A program made the position numbers and the translations under genes. This document shows positions 9,523 through 59,335 of a stretch of DNA of 64,000 nt, piece by piece. Under the pieces are notes generated by a model. The model worked only from the letters and a program-made list of their open reading frames with translations. It had not been told where the DNA came from and searched no databases. The DNA is from Rhodospirillales bacterium (GTDB lineage Bacteria; Pseudomonadota; Alphaproteobacteria; Rhodospirillales; JAPHRK01), in the NCBI GenBank assembly GCA_026196105.1, contig JAPHRK010000033.1, positions 124,001 to 188,000 of the forward strand, given 5' to 3'. Within the stretch, counting starts at the first letter, position 1. Each line of letters opens with the position of its first letter.

Positions 9523-9609
9523 TGGTGCCCCCAGTCGGAATCGAACCGACACTCCGTTGCCAGAACGGGATTTTGAATCCCGCGCGTCTACCAATTCCGC
9601 CACAGGGGC
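9523..9609 (-). tRNA. tRNA-Leu (anticodon CAA)
   Basis: An 87-base class II tRNA with encoded CCA. Acceptor stem GCCCCTG pairs with TGGGGGC, with one G-T pair at each of the two inner positions. The anticodon stem CGGGA/TCCCG encloses loop TTCAAAA, giving anticodon CAA. A long variable arm (about TTCTGGCAACGGAGT) and T-loop GGTTCGATTCC are present. It decodes UUG. Confidence 0.95.
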
Positions 9610-11925: not shown

Positions 11926-12015
11926 GCCAGTACGGGGGCACTATTGTAGGGCTAAATTTAATTTAGTGATCGTCGTCACTTCCATGGGGGCGGAAGGAAG
12001 ATAATGTGGTTCTCA

Positions 12016-12078
12016 GATCAGGGGCCATGATCCCCAACAAACGTCCCCCCAAACGGCGTTCCCTTCAAGCCCCTGATC
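12016..12078. other. Long inverted repeat in intergenic region, possible structured RNA
   Basis: GATCAGGGGC (12016-12025) is perfectly repeated inverted at 12069-12078. The enclosed 43 bases can form inner pairs and expose C-runs when read on the plus strand. A second perfect hairpin (CGATTGCTG/CAGCAATCG, 12134-12153) lies nearby. The region sits between the convergent ends of the CBS gene and the Cys-rich peptide gene. It might be a bidirectional 3'-end structure or a small RNA; I recognise no known family. Confidence 0.35.
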
Positions 12079-12189
12079 CCCCTCTCCTTATTAAAACCGA
12101 TTTGCGTTCAAGCGCCTTGCATTCTCACGCAAACGATTGCTGTGCAGCAATCGCAACCTTGATAGAGAGTAGAGTAAGGATAAATTGGA

Positions 12190-12474
12190 CTAGTAACAGC
12201 TACGTTGGGCGTCTTTGCAGGCTGATTTACATGCTTTATCTTTTTTATCGCAGGATTTACGGCATTTTTTATAGATTGTACCGCAATCGACTGGTTTGCG
12301 GCTCATGCTGCCGATGGAACCAGCGCAACTAGATTTGCAAGTGGCTTTTTCATCTTTGCCATTGTCACGGATACATTTTTCCATACAAGCCATGATGTCA
12401 GCTTGAGCAACTGGGGGGGTTATGAAAACAAAACCTAAGATAATGAGAAGTGCCAAACCAATTTTTTTCATCAT
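12190..12474 (-). CDS. Secreted cysteine-rich small protein with CX3C motifs
   Basis: A 94-residue protein. Residues 1-25 form a signal peptide (hydrophobic core IGLALLIILGFVFI, cleavage after VAQA). The mature 69 residues contain ten cysteines, arranged as CX3C pairs: CMEKC, CKSSC, CRKSC and CKSAC, plus two single Cys. The first two pairs are 11 residues apart and the last two six apart, similar to helical-hairpin twin CX3C folds. The protein is strongly basic. It could be a disulfide-stapled periplasmic or secreted peptide, or a metal-binding protein. Family not recognised; no homologous neighbour. Confidence 0.75.
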   Translation of the reverse strand: MMKKIGLALLIILGFVFITPPVAQADIMACMEKCIRDNGKDEKATCKSSCAGSIGSMSRKPVDCGTIYKKCRKSCDKKDKACKSACKDAQRSCY

Positions 12475-12519
12475 ACGTACCTCGAATTATTTAAAAATAT
12501 TTATGTTGAAGCAATCTGG

Positions 12520-13068
12520 TTAAACATCACCGTTAAGCGAGGCTCTGAGAAGTCGAGATTGCAGGGCACTTATTTCTTTTCGCACATCTTCAAGCTCTTG
12601 GTGAACTGAAACACAGCCCTGGATGCCTAGTTGTTCCTTGAAATCTTCAAAATCTATGCGAAATTCAGCGCCAACGGCTCGATCAGAAGCAAGACGGTCT
12701 TTGATTTCGGCAAGGTCTTTAGCGAGAGCCTGGAGTGAGTCATCTTGGCCAATAGCTGCTGCCTCGATCTCATCACTAGATACCTCTTCCTCTTCAAAAT
12801 TCTCTTCTTCTAATAATTCATCTTCTAACTCTGGTGCTGAAATGGCTTCTTCTTCAATTTCCAACTCTTCAATTTCTACGAGGGGAGGTGGCGGTGGGGC
12901 TTGAAGGGTTTCTTCCAAGCGAACAACGAGCATTTCAAGCAGTCGTCGGGTATCCTTTGCTTTTTCTTCCCAACCAGAGAGGCGTGAAAGTTCCAGCTTA
13001 AGTTCATCGACTTCTGAGCGAAGTTCAATGACCTCTTCTTCTAGTTGATCGTTGTCTAAGTCTGCCAT
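12520..13068 (-). CDS. Acidic coiled-coil protein, function unknown
   Basis: A 182-residue cytoplasmic protein with an N-terminal coiled coil (about residues 5-55), a five-proline turn (57-62), a very acidic segment (62-105, mainly E and D), and a second helical segment to the end (110-178). No signal peptide, membrane helix or known domain is visible. It looks like a small structural or scaffolding protein. The next gene on the minus strand (psuG) lies 59 bases upstream of its start, so the two may be co-transcribed. Confidence 0.7.
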   Translation of the reverse strand: MADLDNDQLEEEVIELRSEVDELKLELSRLSGWEEKAKDTRRLLEMLVVRLEETLQAPPPPPLVEIEELEIEEEAISAPELEDELLEEENFEEEEVSSDEIEAAAIGQDDSLQALAKDLAEIKDRLASDRAVGAEFRIDFEDFKEQLGIQGCVSVHQELEDVRKEISALQSRLLRASLNGDV

Positions 13069-13127
13069 GACACTTATCTAGCTATTTCCAGGGGCTATCG
13101 TCAATGGGTAGCACAAAAACCTTAACC

Positions 13128-14051
13128 TTAGCTTTCTCTTTTTACCGCCCAGTATTGAGCCGCTATTAAGGCGGCAACTCGTGCGTTATCAGCTAACAGG
13201 GTTTTGTTGGTAGTAATTGAGGCTCCATCAGTTAATTTACTGAGGCTTTTCAATAAATAAGGTGTGACAGCTTTTCCTGTTATTCCTTCAGCATGGGCTC
13301 TTTCAAGGGCTAGGTTTATGGATTTCTCAATTTCTTCTTGATCAAGGGCAGCGCTCTGAGGGACGGGATTGGCAAAAAGAATACCTTTTTCAGGGGACAG
13401 CTGCCATTGAAGCTTGGCTAAATGAGCTGCTTGCTTATCTCCCTCTACCCACTGATCGAGATATAGACCGCTTTCACGGCTGTAAAAGGCTGGGAGTTTT
13501 TGAGTTCTGTACCCCACAACAGGGATACAAAGTGTTTCAAGATGTTCAAGGGTTTTTGGTAAATCCAGTATGGATTTTGCGCCGCTGCATATAACAGCGA
13601 CAGGTGACTGGGTAAGCTGTTGAAGGTCTGCCGAAATATCCCAGGTTTTATCAACTCCACGGTGGACACCGCCAATGCCGCCAGTAGCAAAAAACTTAAT
13701 TCCGGCTTTGTGAGCACAAACAACTGTTGCAGCGACGGTGGTTGATCCGTTAGCTCGCTTGGATAAAGCATATGAAAGATCGCGGCTGCTGAGTTTAAGA
13801 ACATCCCGAGCTTGAGCAAACTCTTCTAACTTATCGTCGGATAGGCCAATTTTGATTTTTCCATCCATAACAACAATGGTCGCTGGAAGGGCACCGTTTT
13901 CGCGAACCACAGATTCCATCTTGCGGGCTATGGCTAAGTTATCAGGGAAAGGAAGCCCATGGGAAATAACAGTCGATTCCAAAGCAACAATTGGCTTTTG
14001 GGTCGCTAATGCATCTTTAATTTCAGATGTAATGTCAATAATTTTATCCAT
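13128..14051 (-). CDS. psuG: Pseudouridine-5'-phosphate glycosidase
   Basis: A 307-residue enzyme that splits pseudouridine 5'-phosphate into uracil and ribose 5-phosphate. It opens with the conserved ALESTVISHGLPFPDNLAIA block and contains FFATGGIGGVHRG and SGAKSILDLPKTLE, all PsuG signatures. Length is normal. The usual partner kinase psuK is neither fused nor adjacent here. Upstream on the same strand lies the candidate C-rich small RNA with a terminator, so psuG must be transcribed from the short AT-rich gap at about 14052-14080 or by read-through. Confidence 0.93.
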   Translation of the reverse strand: MDKIIDITSEIKDALATQKPIVALESTVISHGLPFPDNLAIARKMESVVRENGALPATIVVMDGKIKIGLSDDKLEEFAQARDVLKLSSRDLSYALSKRANGSTTVAATVVCAHKAGIKFFATGGIGGVHRGVDKTWDISADLQQLTQSPVAVICSGAKSILDLPKTLEHLETLCIPVVGYRTQKLPAFYSRESGLYLDQWVEGDKQAAHLAKLQWQLSPEKGILFANPVPQSAALDQEEIEKSINLALERAHAEGITGKAVTPYLLKSLSKLTDGASITTNKTLLADNARVAALIAAQYWAVKRES

Positions 14052-14080
14052 TTACATACCATGAACTAAAATTAAGACAG

Positions 14081-14174
14081 AAAAAAGGACCAACCAGGAA
14101 GGTATTTGGGGGAGGGGACGCGGCACGGTTCGGGGTTGGGGAAGGGGGCCGCGGCGTATTTTCCAGGTTGGTCC
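14081..14174 (-). ncRNA. Candidate C-rich small RNA with intrinsic terminator
   Basis: On the minus strand GGACCAACC (14174-14166) pairs with GGTTGGTCC (14095-14087), followed directly by TTTTTT. A further GGAA/TTCC extends the stem after one mismatch, and CGCGGC pairs with GCCGCG to form an inner hairpin. The unpaired parts are C-runs (CCCCCTTCCCC, CCCCTCCCCC) that could pair with purine-rich ribosome binding sites. This resembles alphaproteobacterial small RNAs with anti-Shine-Dalgarno loops. A weak -10 like TAATAG lies upstream. No homology claim can be made from here. Confidence 0.5.
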
Positions 14175-14318
14175 GTAGTTAAGACTATTACATATAAAAC
14201 ACCAGAATTCTAACGCCCGAGCGTATAGTTAGGGCTCGGAAAAGTATACCTAGGGTCCATTCGTATACATTTTGTGGAAAACTTTAGGAAAATTGTGCAA
14301 GACTCTACCAGGAAGGGA

Positions 14319-15824
14319 TTACTTGTTTTTAGTCTCAGAGCCTGCTGCGGTCTCAAAATTTGTAAGATCCATCAAAGCTATGGGAACTGCGGGGTAATTT
14401 GCTGCGGCCCAACTCATTAAAGTCACGCTCAGAACAACCAAGGCTATGGCCGTGAATTTCATTTTCAGAGATTGTATTACTTTGTTTTTGGGATTCAATT
14501 GCGTTGTATGAGCCATTGCGGGGGTACCTACAACAGGTGTTGTCATCCCTGATTGGTAATAACAGGCTTCACCGATACCACTACGCTTTGCATGATACAT
14601 AGCAATATCTGCCCGACCTAAAAGAGTTTCTTGGTCTGTGCCGTCTTTGGGGTATACCGAAATGCCGATACTTACGCCTATCTGGGTGAGTTTTCCCGAC
14701 AGCATGAAGGGTTCAGCCACAGTTTCAATTATCTTTTTTGCGACCAAAGATGCGCTGTCTTGGTCATTAATTTCTGAAACAATGACAGCAAACTCATCTC
14801 CTCCTAAACGGGCCACAGTATCCGAGTCACGGACAGATTTTTTAAGACGCAAGGCAACTTCTTTTAAGAGGGTATCGCCGATCGCATGACCACGGGTGTC
14901 GTTGATCTCTTTGAAGCGATCCAGATCTAGGAAGAAGACAGCGAATTTTTGTTGGCTCCGCTTGGCTTGTTTGCTTGTGGTGTTTAGGCGATCAAAGAAC
15001 AAGGTGCGGTTGGGGAGTTCTGTTAGAGAGTCATAGCTTGCCTGGCGAATAATCTCTTCTTCAAAAAGCTTGCTTCTGGTGATGTCGCGGAAGATTGCTA
15101 GGTAATGAGTAATGCTTCCTTTGGTCGCTTTGATGCACGACATGGAAAGCCAGACCGGGAAGGTTTCCCCATTTTTGCGCTGGTACCAGACTTCGCCTTG
15201 CCAATTGCCTTGGGTGTTTACTTCTTTCCAGAAATTTTCAAAGAAATCGATATCTTGGCAACCGGATTCAAGAAAATCAGGTCTGACCCCAAGAATTTCT
15301 TTAGAAGGAAAGCCCGTTATCTGACAAAAGGCATTATTTACCATTTTTATATGGTGATGCTTATCTGTCAACATGATGGCATCTGTTTCTGAATTAAACA
15401 ACGATTGAGCAATCATTGAAAATTCTTTAGTTTTACCTATTTCGTTCAACTTGCTTTTAAGAGCAATTTCATGATTTAGGGCATCGCAAATTTCTGTCGT
15501 TTGTGAACGGGGGACAACATTATGGACCCCTTGTTTTATCAAGCGAACAGCCATTGCTGCATCTAGATTATCATCAACAACAAGGAGAGGGGTGTCTACA
15601 TGGAGGTCGTTTAAAATATCGAGAGCTTTTTTGACAGGAAGAGCTTCTGACTCTTCAACAATAACGGCATCCCAATTTTGCAACCCTAAAGCAGAACTGT
15701 ATTGGGTTTCATCTTCAACGATCTGGAGAGAAGGCGCAAAACCTCTGGCACGCAACTCAACAGTGAGTGCGTCTACATGTTCCGGCATAATGCCAGAGAT
15801 TAAAATATTTCTTCTAGTCGCCAC
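14319..15824 (-). CDS. PAS-GGDEF diguanylate cyclase with degenerate receiver and C-terminal helix
   Basis: A 501-residue protein predicted to make cyclic di-GMP. Residues 6-120 look like a receiver fold, but the phosphoacceptor position is Glu57 (NWDAVIVEES) and the conserved Lys is missing, so it is probably not phosphorylated. A PAS domain (about 138-255) follows, then GGDEF (260-425) with an intact GGDEF motif at 341-345 and an RxxD inhibitory site (Arg332-Asp335) exactly five residues before it. A single hydrophobic helix (about 457-475) near the C-terminus may anchor it to the membrane, an unusual position. It stands upstream of the candidate small RNA. Confidence 0.9.
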   Translation of the reverse strand: MATRRNILISGIMPEHVDALTVELRARGFAPSLQIVEDETQYSSALGLQNWDAVIVEESEALPVKKALDILNDLHVDTPLLVVDDNLDAAMAVRLIKQGVHNVVPRSQTTEICDALNHEIALKSKLNEIGKTKEFSMIAQSLFNSETDAIMLTDKHHHIKMVNNAFCQITGFPSKEILGVRPDFLESGCQDIDFFENFWKEVNTQGNWQGEVWYQRKNGETFPVWLSMSCIKATKGSITHYLAIFRDITRSKLFEEEIIRQASYDSLTELPNRTLFFDRLNTTSKQAKRSQQKFAVFFLDLDRFKEINDTRGHAIGDTLLKEVALRLKKSVRDSDTVARLGGDEFAVIVSEINDQDSASLVAKKIIETVAEPFMLSGKLTQIGVSIGISVYPKDGTDQETLLGRADIAMYHAKRSGIGEACYYQSGMTTPVVGTPAMAHTTQLNPKNKVIQSLKMKFTAIALVVLSVTLMSWAAANYPAVPIALMDLTNFETAAGSETKNK

Positions 15825-15980
15825 GGCACTGCAACTCCCCTGTGCCTGTTTAGAAGTGTTATAATTACATTTTTATGGAAAGTCTACCCGTAAAGAGTTT
15901 AAAGTGAGGGTTTTAACAGAAAATTTACGTTTATGGCGGGTGCTTTGGGAGAAAAGGTCTTGAACAGGGATATATGACTA

Positions 15981-17129
15981 TTATATGGCCCGTTTAATGG
16001 AGAGGGTTGTAACGTCATCTGCAATCTCTGCCTGACCAGCAAAATCTTTCACCAGTTGCTGGACTCGGTCGCAAATTTCTTGTGCCGAGGCCCCGTGTTG
16101 ACCCTCCAAGAACTCGACTAGGCGCTCTTCGGTAAGCTGATTTCGTTGTTCATCCATGGCTTCGCTGACCCCATCAGTAAAGAAGAAAACTGAATCCCCT
16201 GGCTCAATTTGAACCTCAGATTTCTCGTAAGGCATTCCTTTCTCTACCCCTAAGACGATCCCTTCACCCCCTTCTAAGGGCGTGGATTTTCCGGTTTTGT
16301 GACGGGTGATTAATGGAGGGTGGTGTCCTCCATTTGCATAGCTTAGGGTCCAGGTTTCCATGTCTAAGGTGCAGTAAAAAACGGTCACGAACATGTTGGT
16401 GATGTCGTGGCGACAGAGGAGGTCGTTTGCTTGAAAAAGGCTAGCTGCAGGGTCTCTACCATGGGTTGCTGCTGCTTGAATGAGGGTCCGGGCGACAGCC
16501 ATGAAAAATGCCGCAGGAATACCTTTACCTGCCACATCAGCAATTACCATTCCGATCTTGGTTGGTTCGACAAAAAAAACATCATAAAAGTCACCGCTCA
16601 TCTCTTTTGCAGAGCGAATATCTGCAGCAATTTCTAAGTTCTCAAATTCAGGAAAAATTGAGGGCAGAATGCGCATTTGAATGTCGCTGGCGATATCGAC
16701 TTCTCGGCGAATAGCTGAAAGTTGGGCCTCAGTTCGCCAAGCTTTGCGCCGCCGCTCGCAATCTTTATAAACTCTACCGATCGTACTAATCAGGTCAGCA
16801 GGAGCGACAGGCCGTGTTAAAAAATCTGCGGCTCCATTGTTCATAGCTTCTCGAATGTGAGGGATATCATCCCCTTTGGTTAAGGCGACTCTGGGGATAC
16901 GAACTTTGCGGCCACTTAATTTGTGAAAGAGCTCAAGGCCATGTAATTCTTCTTTGTCGATAGCAACAATCGCCAAATCGAGGTCAGGTTCATCACGTAG
17001 TATTTCTACGGCTTCTTCGTTGGATTGCGCAAAAATGAATTGGTAATTCTCATCCTTAAGTCTTTCCGCTTGCTGTTTGCACTCAGAGATGAATTGATCA
17101 TCGGTATCGACTATAAGGGTGACTGGCAT
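15981..17129 (-). CDS. RsbU/SpoIIE-type PP2C phosphatase with N-terminal receiver
   Basis: A 382-residue two-domain protein. Residues 1-122 form a receiver-like domain in which the acceptor Asp is replaced (Ala56) and the conserved Lys is Arg106, so classical phosphorylation is doubtful. A coiled linker (125-150) leads to a PP2C/SpoIIE phosphatase with metal-binding motifs MSGDFYD (178-184), ADVAGKG (197-203), FTDG (317-320) and ADDVT (370-374). It should dephosphorylate an anti-sigma factor antagonist in a partner-switching cascade; no such partner is in the window. It lies just upstream of the diguanylate cyclase on the same strand with a 156-base gap. Confidence 0.9.
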   Translation of the reverse strand: MPVTLIVDTDDQFISECKQQAERLKDENYQFIFAQSNEEAVEILRDEPDLDLAIVAIDKEELHGLELFHKLSGRKVRIPRVALTKGDDIPHIREAMNNGAADFLTRPVAPADLISTIGRVYKDCERRRKAWRTEAQLSAIRREVDIASDIQMRILPSIFPEFENLEIAADIRSAKEMSGDFYDVFFVEPTKIGMVIADVAGKGIPAAFFMAVARTLIQAAATHGRDPAASLFQANDLLCRHDITNMFVTVFYCTLDMETWTLSYANGGHHPPLITRHKTGKSTPLEGGEGIVLGVEKGMPYEKSEVQIEPGDSVFFFTDGVSEAMDEQRNQLTEERLVEFLEGQHGASAQEICDRVQQLVKDFAGQAEIADDVTTLSIKRAI

Positions 17130-58681: not shown

Positions 58682-59335
58682 TTACAAAATAGATTGTCCA
58701 GTTTTTTTCCAATCGGCCAAGAAGTCTTCTAGACCTTTGTCAGTGAGCGGATGTTTGAACATTTGCCATATTGCTTTAGGGGGCGCTGTTATAACATCTG
58801 CGCCGAGCTTGCCAGATTCAACAATGTGTAATGGGCTGCGAACAGAGGCGACAAGAACTTGCGTGTCAAATTCATAGTTGCCGTAGATATTGACTATATC
58901 TTCAATCAGTTGCAGGCCATCAAGAGACAGGTCGTCTAAACGCCCTACAAAGGGAGAGATGAAGGTTGCACCTGCTTTTGCTGCGAGGATGGCTTGAGCT
59001 GCTGAGAAGCAAAGGGTAACGTTAACCATAGTCCCTTCATCGCTCAATGTTTTACAGGCTTTAATTCCATTTTCAGTCAAGGGAACTTTAACGGTTACAT
59101 TGTCGGCTATTTTAGCAAGCTTCCGGCCTTCTTTGATCATACCGTCATAATCTGTGGCTGTTACTTCGGCGCTCACAGGGCCATCGATTAAATCGCAAAT
59201 TTCTTTAACTGTAGAAACAAAATCTCGACCTGTTTTAGCAATTAAGCTTGGGTTTGTGGTTACGCCATCAACAAGGCCCACGTCATTGAGTTTAGTAATT
59301 TCATCTAAATCAGCGGTATCAACAAAAAACTTCAT
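58682..59335 (-). CDS. tal: Transaldolase (TalC/FSA-type, short form)
   Basis: A 217-residue class I aldolase of the fructose-6-phosphate aldolase/TalC family. The Schiff-base lysine is Lys83 ([16 protein letters not shown]). Residue 129 in [10 protein letters not shown] is Phe; the FSA subtype usually has Tyr there and transaldolases have Phe, so transaldolase activity is more likely than fructose-6-phosphate aldolase. The N-terminal [18 protein letters not shown] is typical. The start ATG has GGAGGG upstream. Confidence 0.92.

Follow-up and report, generated by a model that had tools for sequence, protein, structure and literature searches.

Small RNAs with C-Rich Loops

The RNAs of the cuckoo/CcsR/alpha-r14 group carry CCUCCUCCC loops in two or more consecutive hairpins, often with an adjacent DUF1127 gene (the CIN1 locus), according to the portions of the literature available on them (PMC10253847, PMC3927594, PMC7143759). 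The anti-Shine-Dalgarno (aSD) motifs of the AbcR RNAs silence transport mRNAs, in the available portion of their account (PMC8844928). In PmaR, an intergenic RNA of Agrobacterium with a narrow phylogenetic range, a long stem carries a C-rich single-stranded loop that engages the targets, which are mostly activated, and the portion of the source available describes it as not using an anti-Shine-Dalgarno sequence (PMC6234868). Pairing between C-rich loops and G-rich mRNA sites is also described for sX13 of Xanthomonas, where the sites lie near translation starts, and for GsrN of Caulobacter, in the sections available on these two RNAs (PMC3771888, PMC5869019). A literature search joining the terms sRNA, Rhodospirillales, and C-rich found no paper.

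Structure of the Intergenic Element

The candidate element lies on the minus strand, at positions 14174 to 14081 of the window, that is, the whole stretch of 64,000 nucleotides analyzed here, which belongs to contig C7 of a 3.9-Mb draft genome with 45% GC. A window scan and the fold (z −4.61) both point to a putative terminator-closed C-rich-loop sRNA of about 94–96 nt. Domain identification assigns the upstream gene (14319–15824, minus strand) to a PAS-GGDEF diguanylate cyclase, and the downstream gene (13128–14051, minus strand) to psuG, a pseudouridine-5'-phosphate glycosidase of the Indigoidine_A family.

The anatomy of the element, the polarity of its T-run, and its closing stem are as given in the preliminary description, which had reported a perfect nine-base stem with a T-run on the minus strand. 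In the predicted fold and in the repeat analysis, the 5' arm GGACCAACC (14166–14174) pairs with the 3' arm GGTTGGTCC (14087–14095) over nine perfect base pairs, six of them G-C, and a T6 tract (14081–14086) follows at once, on the minus strand only, giving GGACCAACC ... GGTTGGTCC-TTTTTT at 14174–14081. This tract is a putative intrinsic-terminator tail, and possibly an Hfq-type U-tail. The stem is predicted to run further inward beyond one U·U mismatch, through the pairing of GGAA (14161–14164) with TTCC (14097–14100), which extends the arms to 14 nt each (14161–14174 and 14087–14100) at 93% complementarity (13 of the 14 positions).

The second hairpin and the two long C-runs that had been claimed for the interior are located there as well. 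The inner hairpin (14119–14153) has a predicted 6-bp stem, CGCGGC/GCCGCG (14148–14153 with 14119–14124), and its loop contains C-run A, CCCCCTTCCCCAACCCCG (14131–14148), which is mostly unpaired. C-run B, TCCCCTCCCCCAA (14106–14118), is placed after the hairpin, is predicted to be unpaired, and includes both UCCCCUC and CCUCC, the core anti-Shine-Dalgarno sequence, and is the proposed anti-Shine-Dalgarno seed; the base-pair probabilities leave both runs largely single-stranded in the predicted ensemble. Each run is associated with a GCCGCG motif in a module of 20 nt (14136–14155 and 14105–14124), and the two modules, which are 31 nt apart and 75% identical, form an imperfect repeat. This repeat is a modest signal, because the same similarity is reached in 12 of the 400 dinucleotide shuffles of the element interior, and in 3 of the 400 mononucleotide shuffles. 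Two short open reading frames, of 24 and 35 codons, share sequence with the element, and a coding interpretation is supported for neither.

The minimum free energy of the minus strand between 14070 and 14185 is −30.4 kcal/mol (z −4.61), a value equaled in none of the 200 shuffles, and the plus strand folds with a z-score of −3.90, again with no equal among 200 shuffles.

Comparison with Described RNAs

The preliminary description had filed the element among the CcsR/cuckoo-type or other C-rich-loop sRNAs of the alphaproteobacteria; the general kind survives as the best reading of the locus, but the diagnostic features of the CcsR/cuckoo type do not. The element shares with the cuckoo/CcsR/alpha-r14 RNAs, as far as the available sections describe them, the exposed C-rich loops, the CCUCC core, and an alphaproteobacterial host, and it differs from them in having no CCUCCUCCC, no repeated motif hairpins, and no DUF1127 neighbor (PMC10253847, PMC3927594, PMC7143759). 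The motif CCUCCUCCC is absent from the element, and no tandem pair spaced 8–38 nt was found in the whole genome, while the consecutive hairpins, each with its motif, are replaced by one hairpin nested within a single closing stem, and the adjacent genes are the GGDEF cyclase and psuG. By the features tested, membership of the cuckoo/CcsR family is not supported. The genome does have four DUF1127 matches, on contigs C59, C75, and C8, with the element on C7. These four (loci L190–L193) include two that are 13 kb apart on C59, and the search for cuckoo-type RNAs beside DUF1127 genes covered the tandem CCTCCTCCC pattern.

The AbcR (alpha-r15) motifs aSD1, CUCCUCCC, and aSD2, UUCCCCUC, are both absent from the element. 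In the part of the source that describes AbcR1/2, the likeness is an unpaired anti-Shine-Dalgarno seed, with the UCCCCUC of C-run B matching 7 of the 8 nt of UUCCCCUC, and the differences are the several stem-loops of the AbcR RNAs, the use of CUCCUCCC as aSD1, their tandem arrangement, and their conservation (PMC8844928). In shape, there is a likeness to PmaR, as portrayed in the available part of its account, which shares the spoon form, the one long stem, the large loop with several C-rich stretches, the very narrow range, and the intergenic position, although the fold of the element is a predicted one, and its interior has an additional 6-bp hairpin and the two C-run modules (PMC6234868). 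The predicted fold thus places a long stem around several C-rich single-stranded stretches, in the manner of the PmaR spoon, a likeness of kind rather than of family, drawn by comparing descriptions.

The C-rich loops of sX13 and GsrN offer a parallel for pairing, but sX13 has three separate stem-loops, with no single closing stem around the C-runs described in the sections available, and GsrN, for which there are homologues in the Caulobacteraceae, carries a 5' C-rich loop, with no all-enclosing stem described in those sections (PMC3771888, PMC5869019). UpsM of Rhodobacter is a precedent for an sRNA located within the 5' leader of a downstream gene, and, in the portion of its account available, it occupies a different locus with different downstream genes (PMC5089854). 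By analogy, the architecture resembles that of PmaR, and the seed logic would resemble that of AbcR, of sX13, and of the C-rich loop of GsrN. If the element is expressed, the Rhodospirillales-like lineage of its host would possess a C-rich-loop sRNA, another that acts like PmaR or AbcR without their motifs, and this would suggest that C-rich anti-Shine-Dalgarno regulators arise repeatedly.

Proposed Action and the Flanking Genes

The best reading of the locus, to which we would give an even chance, is a minus-strand sRNA with its own terminator, in which the C-rich loops pair with G-rich ribosome-binding sites. Such an RNA may be transcribed from a promoter of its own immediately ahead of position 14174, or arise through the processing of the 3' UTR of the cyclase mRNA, and would fold into a spoon by the pairing of its 5' and 3' ends as the closing stem, which, together with the six U residues, would act as an intrinsic terminator and shield the ends of the RNA. 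The C-runs, above all UCCCCUCCCCC, would remain unpaired and available for base-pairing with the G-rich ribosome-binding sites of mRNAs in trans, lowering the translation of these targets, with C-run B as the main seed and a less clear part for C-run A. An element of this kind is plausible and ordinary, and its function is putative; its transcription, termination, processing, and targets, as well as the direction of the regulation, are inferred.

The strongest rival, which is possible but doubtful, is that the element is a plain terminator of the cyclase mRNA, in other words, a stable structure of the 3' UTR with no action in trans, in which the C-runs are incidental loop sequence. The position fits this, given that the cyclase stop is at 14319 and the element starts 145 nt further downstream in the same orientation, where its strong stem runs into the T6 tract. 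The predicted stem is GC-rich and stable, with the U-run directly after it, as in an intrinsic terminator with an unusually long loop, and this long interior, which is unusual for an intrinsic terminator, also counts against the sRNA reading. A terminator scan of 12000–16500 listed no minus-strand terminator, a point in favor of this rival; the element itself went unlisted because the scan permits loops of only 3–8 nt.

A simple terminator would not need the long interior with its two duplicated C-run modules, and clusters of C-runs are rare outside genes in a genome with 45% GC. Three C4 runs spaced 1–6 nt apart occur at only eight distinct places in the 3.9-Mb genome (from nine matches to the pattern, with one overlapping pair), and a stop-to-stop frame with 80 or more codons overlaps each of these but one, the element being the only exception among the eight. 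Among the places with just one such frame, the shortest case (L154) has a frame of 113 codons. The arrangement would also sever psuG from any upstream promoter, leaving it 29 nt for one of its own.

This position directly ahead of psuG is the starting point of a further, improbable alternative, in which the closing stem would be a regulated terminator in a cis-acting leader (an attenuator), 29 nt ahead of the start codon. The psuG ATG (14051) lies 29 nt past the T6 tract, with an in-frame TAA directly ahead of it, too little space for an ordinary promoter, and, in front of the ATG, no clear Shine-Dalgarno sequence. An exact 10-nt direct repeat, ACCAGGAAGG, is found at 14093–14102, on the 3' side of the closing stem, and at 14307–14316, just past the cyclase stop, and the latter copy (14316–14307 on the minus strand), which repeats part of the 3' arm, could serve as a weak antiterminator by pairing with the 5' arm. 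Read from the sequence, this alternative pairing would be the shorter one, with about 7 bp to the terminator's 13, and when 14052–14330 is folded as a whole the closing stem forms unchanged, with the entire leader no more stable than its shuffles (z −0.87). The attenuator reading is also disfavored by the lack of a candidate for ligand binding or for a leader peptide, and by the absence of a homologous leader from all the relatives searched.

Consensus scanning found no promoter match adjoining the element, and the promoter-like sites in 12000–16500 number 6, against 6.1 in the shuffles. Promoter hexamers read by hand were too weak to be counted as parts. An operator-like inverted repeat, AAAAGTATAC / GTATACATTT (14240–14272), with 90% identity and 13 nt between its arms, lies upstream of the element.

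Chance Expectation and the Search for Relatives

There is only a slight probability that the structure arose by chance, or is the remnant of a decayed mobile element. Each part taken alone is expected in 12–20% of shuffled windows, as a 9-bp stem followed by T5 (interior 20–120 nt) is present in 20% of the 200 Markov-shuffled windows, and 12.5% of them contain a triple C4 cluster. In the actual window, the element is the only place, on either strand, where a perfect 9-bp stem precedes T5 with an interior of 30–150 nt. The single parts are common by chance in 64 kb, but their coincidence at one intergenic spot, combined with the z-score of −4.61, is beyond chance. A 7-bp direct repeat, TTAAGAC, is found on both flanks of the element (14072–14078 and 14179–14185), like a target-site duplication, although a repeat of this length is often expected by chance at such a distance. 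The element is present as a single copy in its genome, with no second element end, which also argues against a mobile origin. An integron attC site was considered and set aside, given that the outer arms resemble the attC core consensus but do not fit it, and there is only the single copy.

The absence of a homologue in any of the searches is an observation in favor of a chance or decayed structure. The compared genomes listed belong to the same order as the host, but to other families, with none closer than the order. The COQ7 protein encoded in the window has its nearest match, at 71%, in a Rhodospirillales MAG, and the Rhodospirillales-like placement of the host is based on this one protein. 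A BLAST search with the 311-bp stretch 14020–14330 matched 1 of the 317 genomes of the order, which was the host genome, and none of the other 316. When the element itself was the query, 11 of 60 order genomes gave matches, including the host, and those in the other ten were short (18–41 bp), and were judged to be chance after being viewed with their folds, with no formal annotation of their coding status. A covariance model derived from this one sequence recovered only the host genome in the order (1 of 297, with 0 of the 296 others) and in the class (1 of 385, with 0 of the 384 others), and nothing in 80 named loci (0.92 Mb). Weak or diverged relatives could be missed in the searches of the order and class, because strict filters were applied and only some of the first-look candidates were scored per genome.

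The check suggested in the preliminary description, a covariance search with known sRNA families, yields nothing at the element, where Rfam 15 has no family at the gathering threshold, and the matches in 13900–14400 are far below the thresholds. Elsewhere in the window, Rfam gives one match, a tRNA gene (9526–9609, minus strand). No viral contig matched the exact stem pattern, and no phage matched the element. The 2.2 kb around the element recovered 12 plasmid records, in which the match is to the coding sequence of psuG or of a GGDEF gene; two of these records are unannotated.

The neighboring genes were followed across the order as well. The psuG gene is patchy, with matches in 20 of 100 genomes, including the host, the others at about 43–52% identity, and a scan of the named genomes that carry it revealed no relative. 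The cyclase has matches in 193 of 297 order genomes, including the host, mostly through the PAS part, and there is no full-length relative of the N-terminal plus PAS part among the matches listed. Comparisons of the synteny of psuG and the cyclase gave no aligned intergenic region. As no homologue was found, there is no covariation, and conservation cannot support the element; conservation and covariation thus argue neither for nor against it. In one relative from the order (G024, locus L018, approximately 1501–1523), a C-rich stretch, CCCCCTCCCCCAACCCCG, lies shortly ahead of an ATG, and pairs with an upstream G-run in the predicted fold.

Pairing Potential with Ribosome-Binding Sites

The anti-Shine-Dalgarno role that had been proposed for the loops was compared with the 54 gene starts of the window, taken mechanically, with the ribosome-binding site of each set against five coding controls. 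C-run B binds better at the ribosome-binding sites than at the coding controls by a mean of 1.14 kcal/mol, a difference that is not significant (one-sided Wilcoxon p = 0.11), and 2 of 40 shuffled loops reach values as low, while the reversed loop is equally good. The tail sequence of the 16S rRNA gave p = 0.016 in the same test of 54 starts, and C-run A has no preference for these gene starts. The proposal finds backing in the CCUCC of C-run B, which is predicted to be unpaired, but not in a significant preference for gene starts, nor in C-run A, and the preference of C-run B is suggestive only.

The best sites for C-run B in the window are those of the transaldolase (58682–59335), a hybrid histidine kinase, a DUF3253 gene, and the cyclase itself, whose ribosome-binding site, AGGGGAG, has a predicted energy of −12.7 kcal/mol, the fourth best of the 54 genes. 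In a composite interpretation, for which we see only a slim chance, a lineage-specific RNA at the 3' side of the cyclase mRNA would combine the roles of terminator, trans-acting anti-Shine-Dalgarno sRNA, and feedback regulator, through which the cyclase would curb its own production, with read-through setting the level of psuG. If this feedback does occur, it would link c-di-GMP signaling to pseudouridine salvage.

Across the genome, the sequence GGGGAGGG occurs 2–14 nt ahead of an ATG in 34 matches, against 11 with a reversed-pattern control. Thirty of these loci were examined and 29 resolved, with only a minority opening a long frame. Comparison of four of them with Pfam identified a BPD_transp_2 protein (a branched-chain amino-acid permease component) and a DctM TRAP permease, and two without a family. 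Plausible targets for the proposed sRNA therefore appear to exist in the genome, which does not imply that they are actually targeted.

G-Runs on the Plus Strand

An action at the level of the DNA, through a plus-strand quadruplex or a minus-strand i-motif affecting transcription or replication, draws on the G-runs opposite the C-rich loops, but is highly improbable, given that it would make the perfect outer stem and the strand-specific T6 tract superfluous, and that no four-run quadruplex with loops of up to 12 nt is found in the element. The several G-runs of the earlier claim are indeed there, with five runs of four or more G and a G4Hunter score of 2.12, the strongest in the window, and the G-quadruplex is possible in a non-canonical form, requiring a loop of about 13–14 nt.
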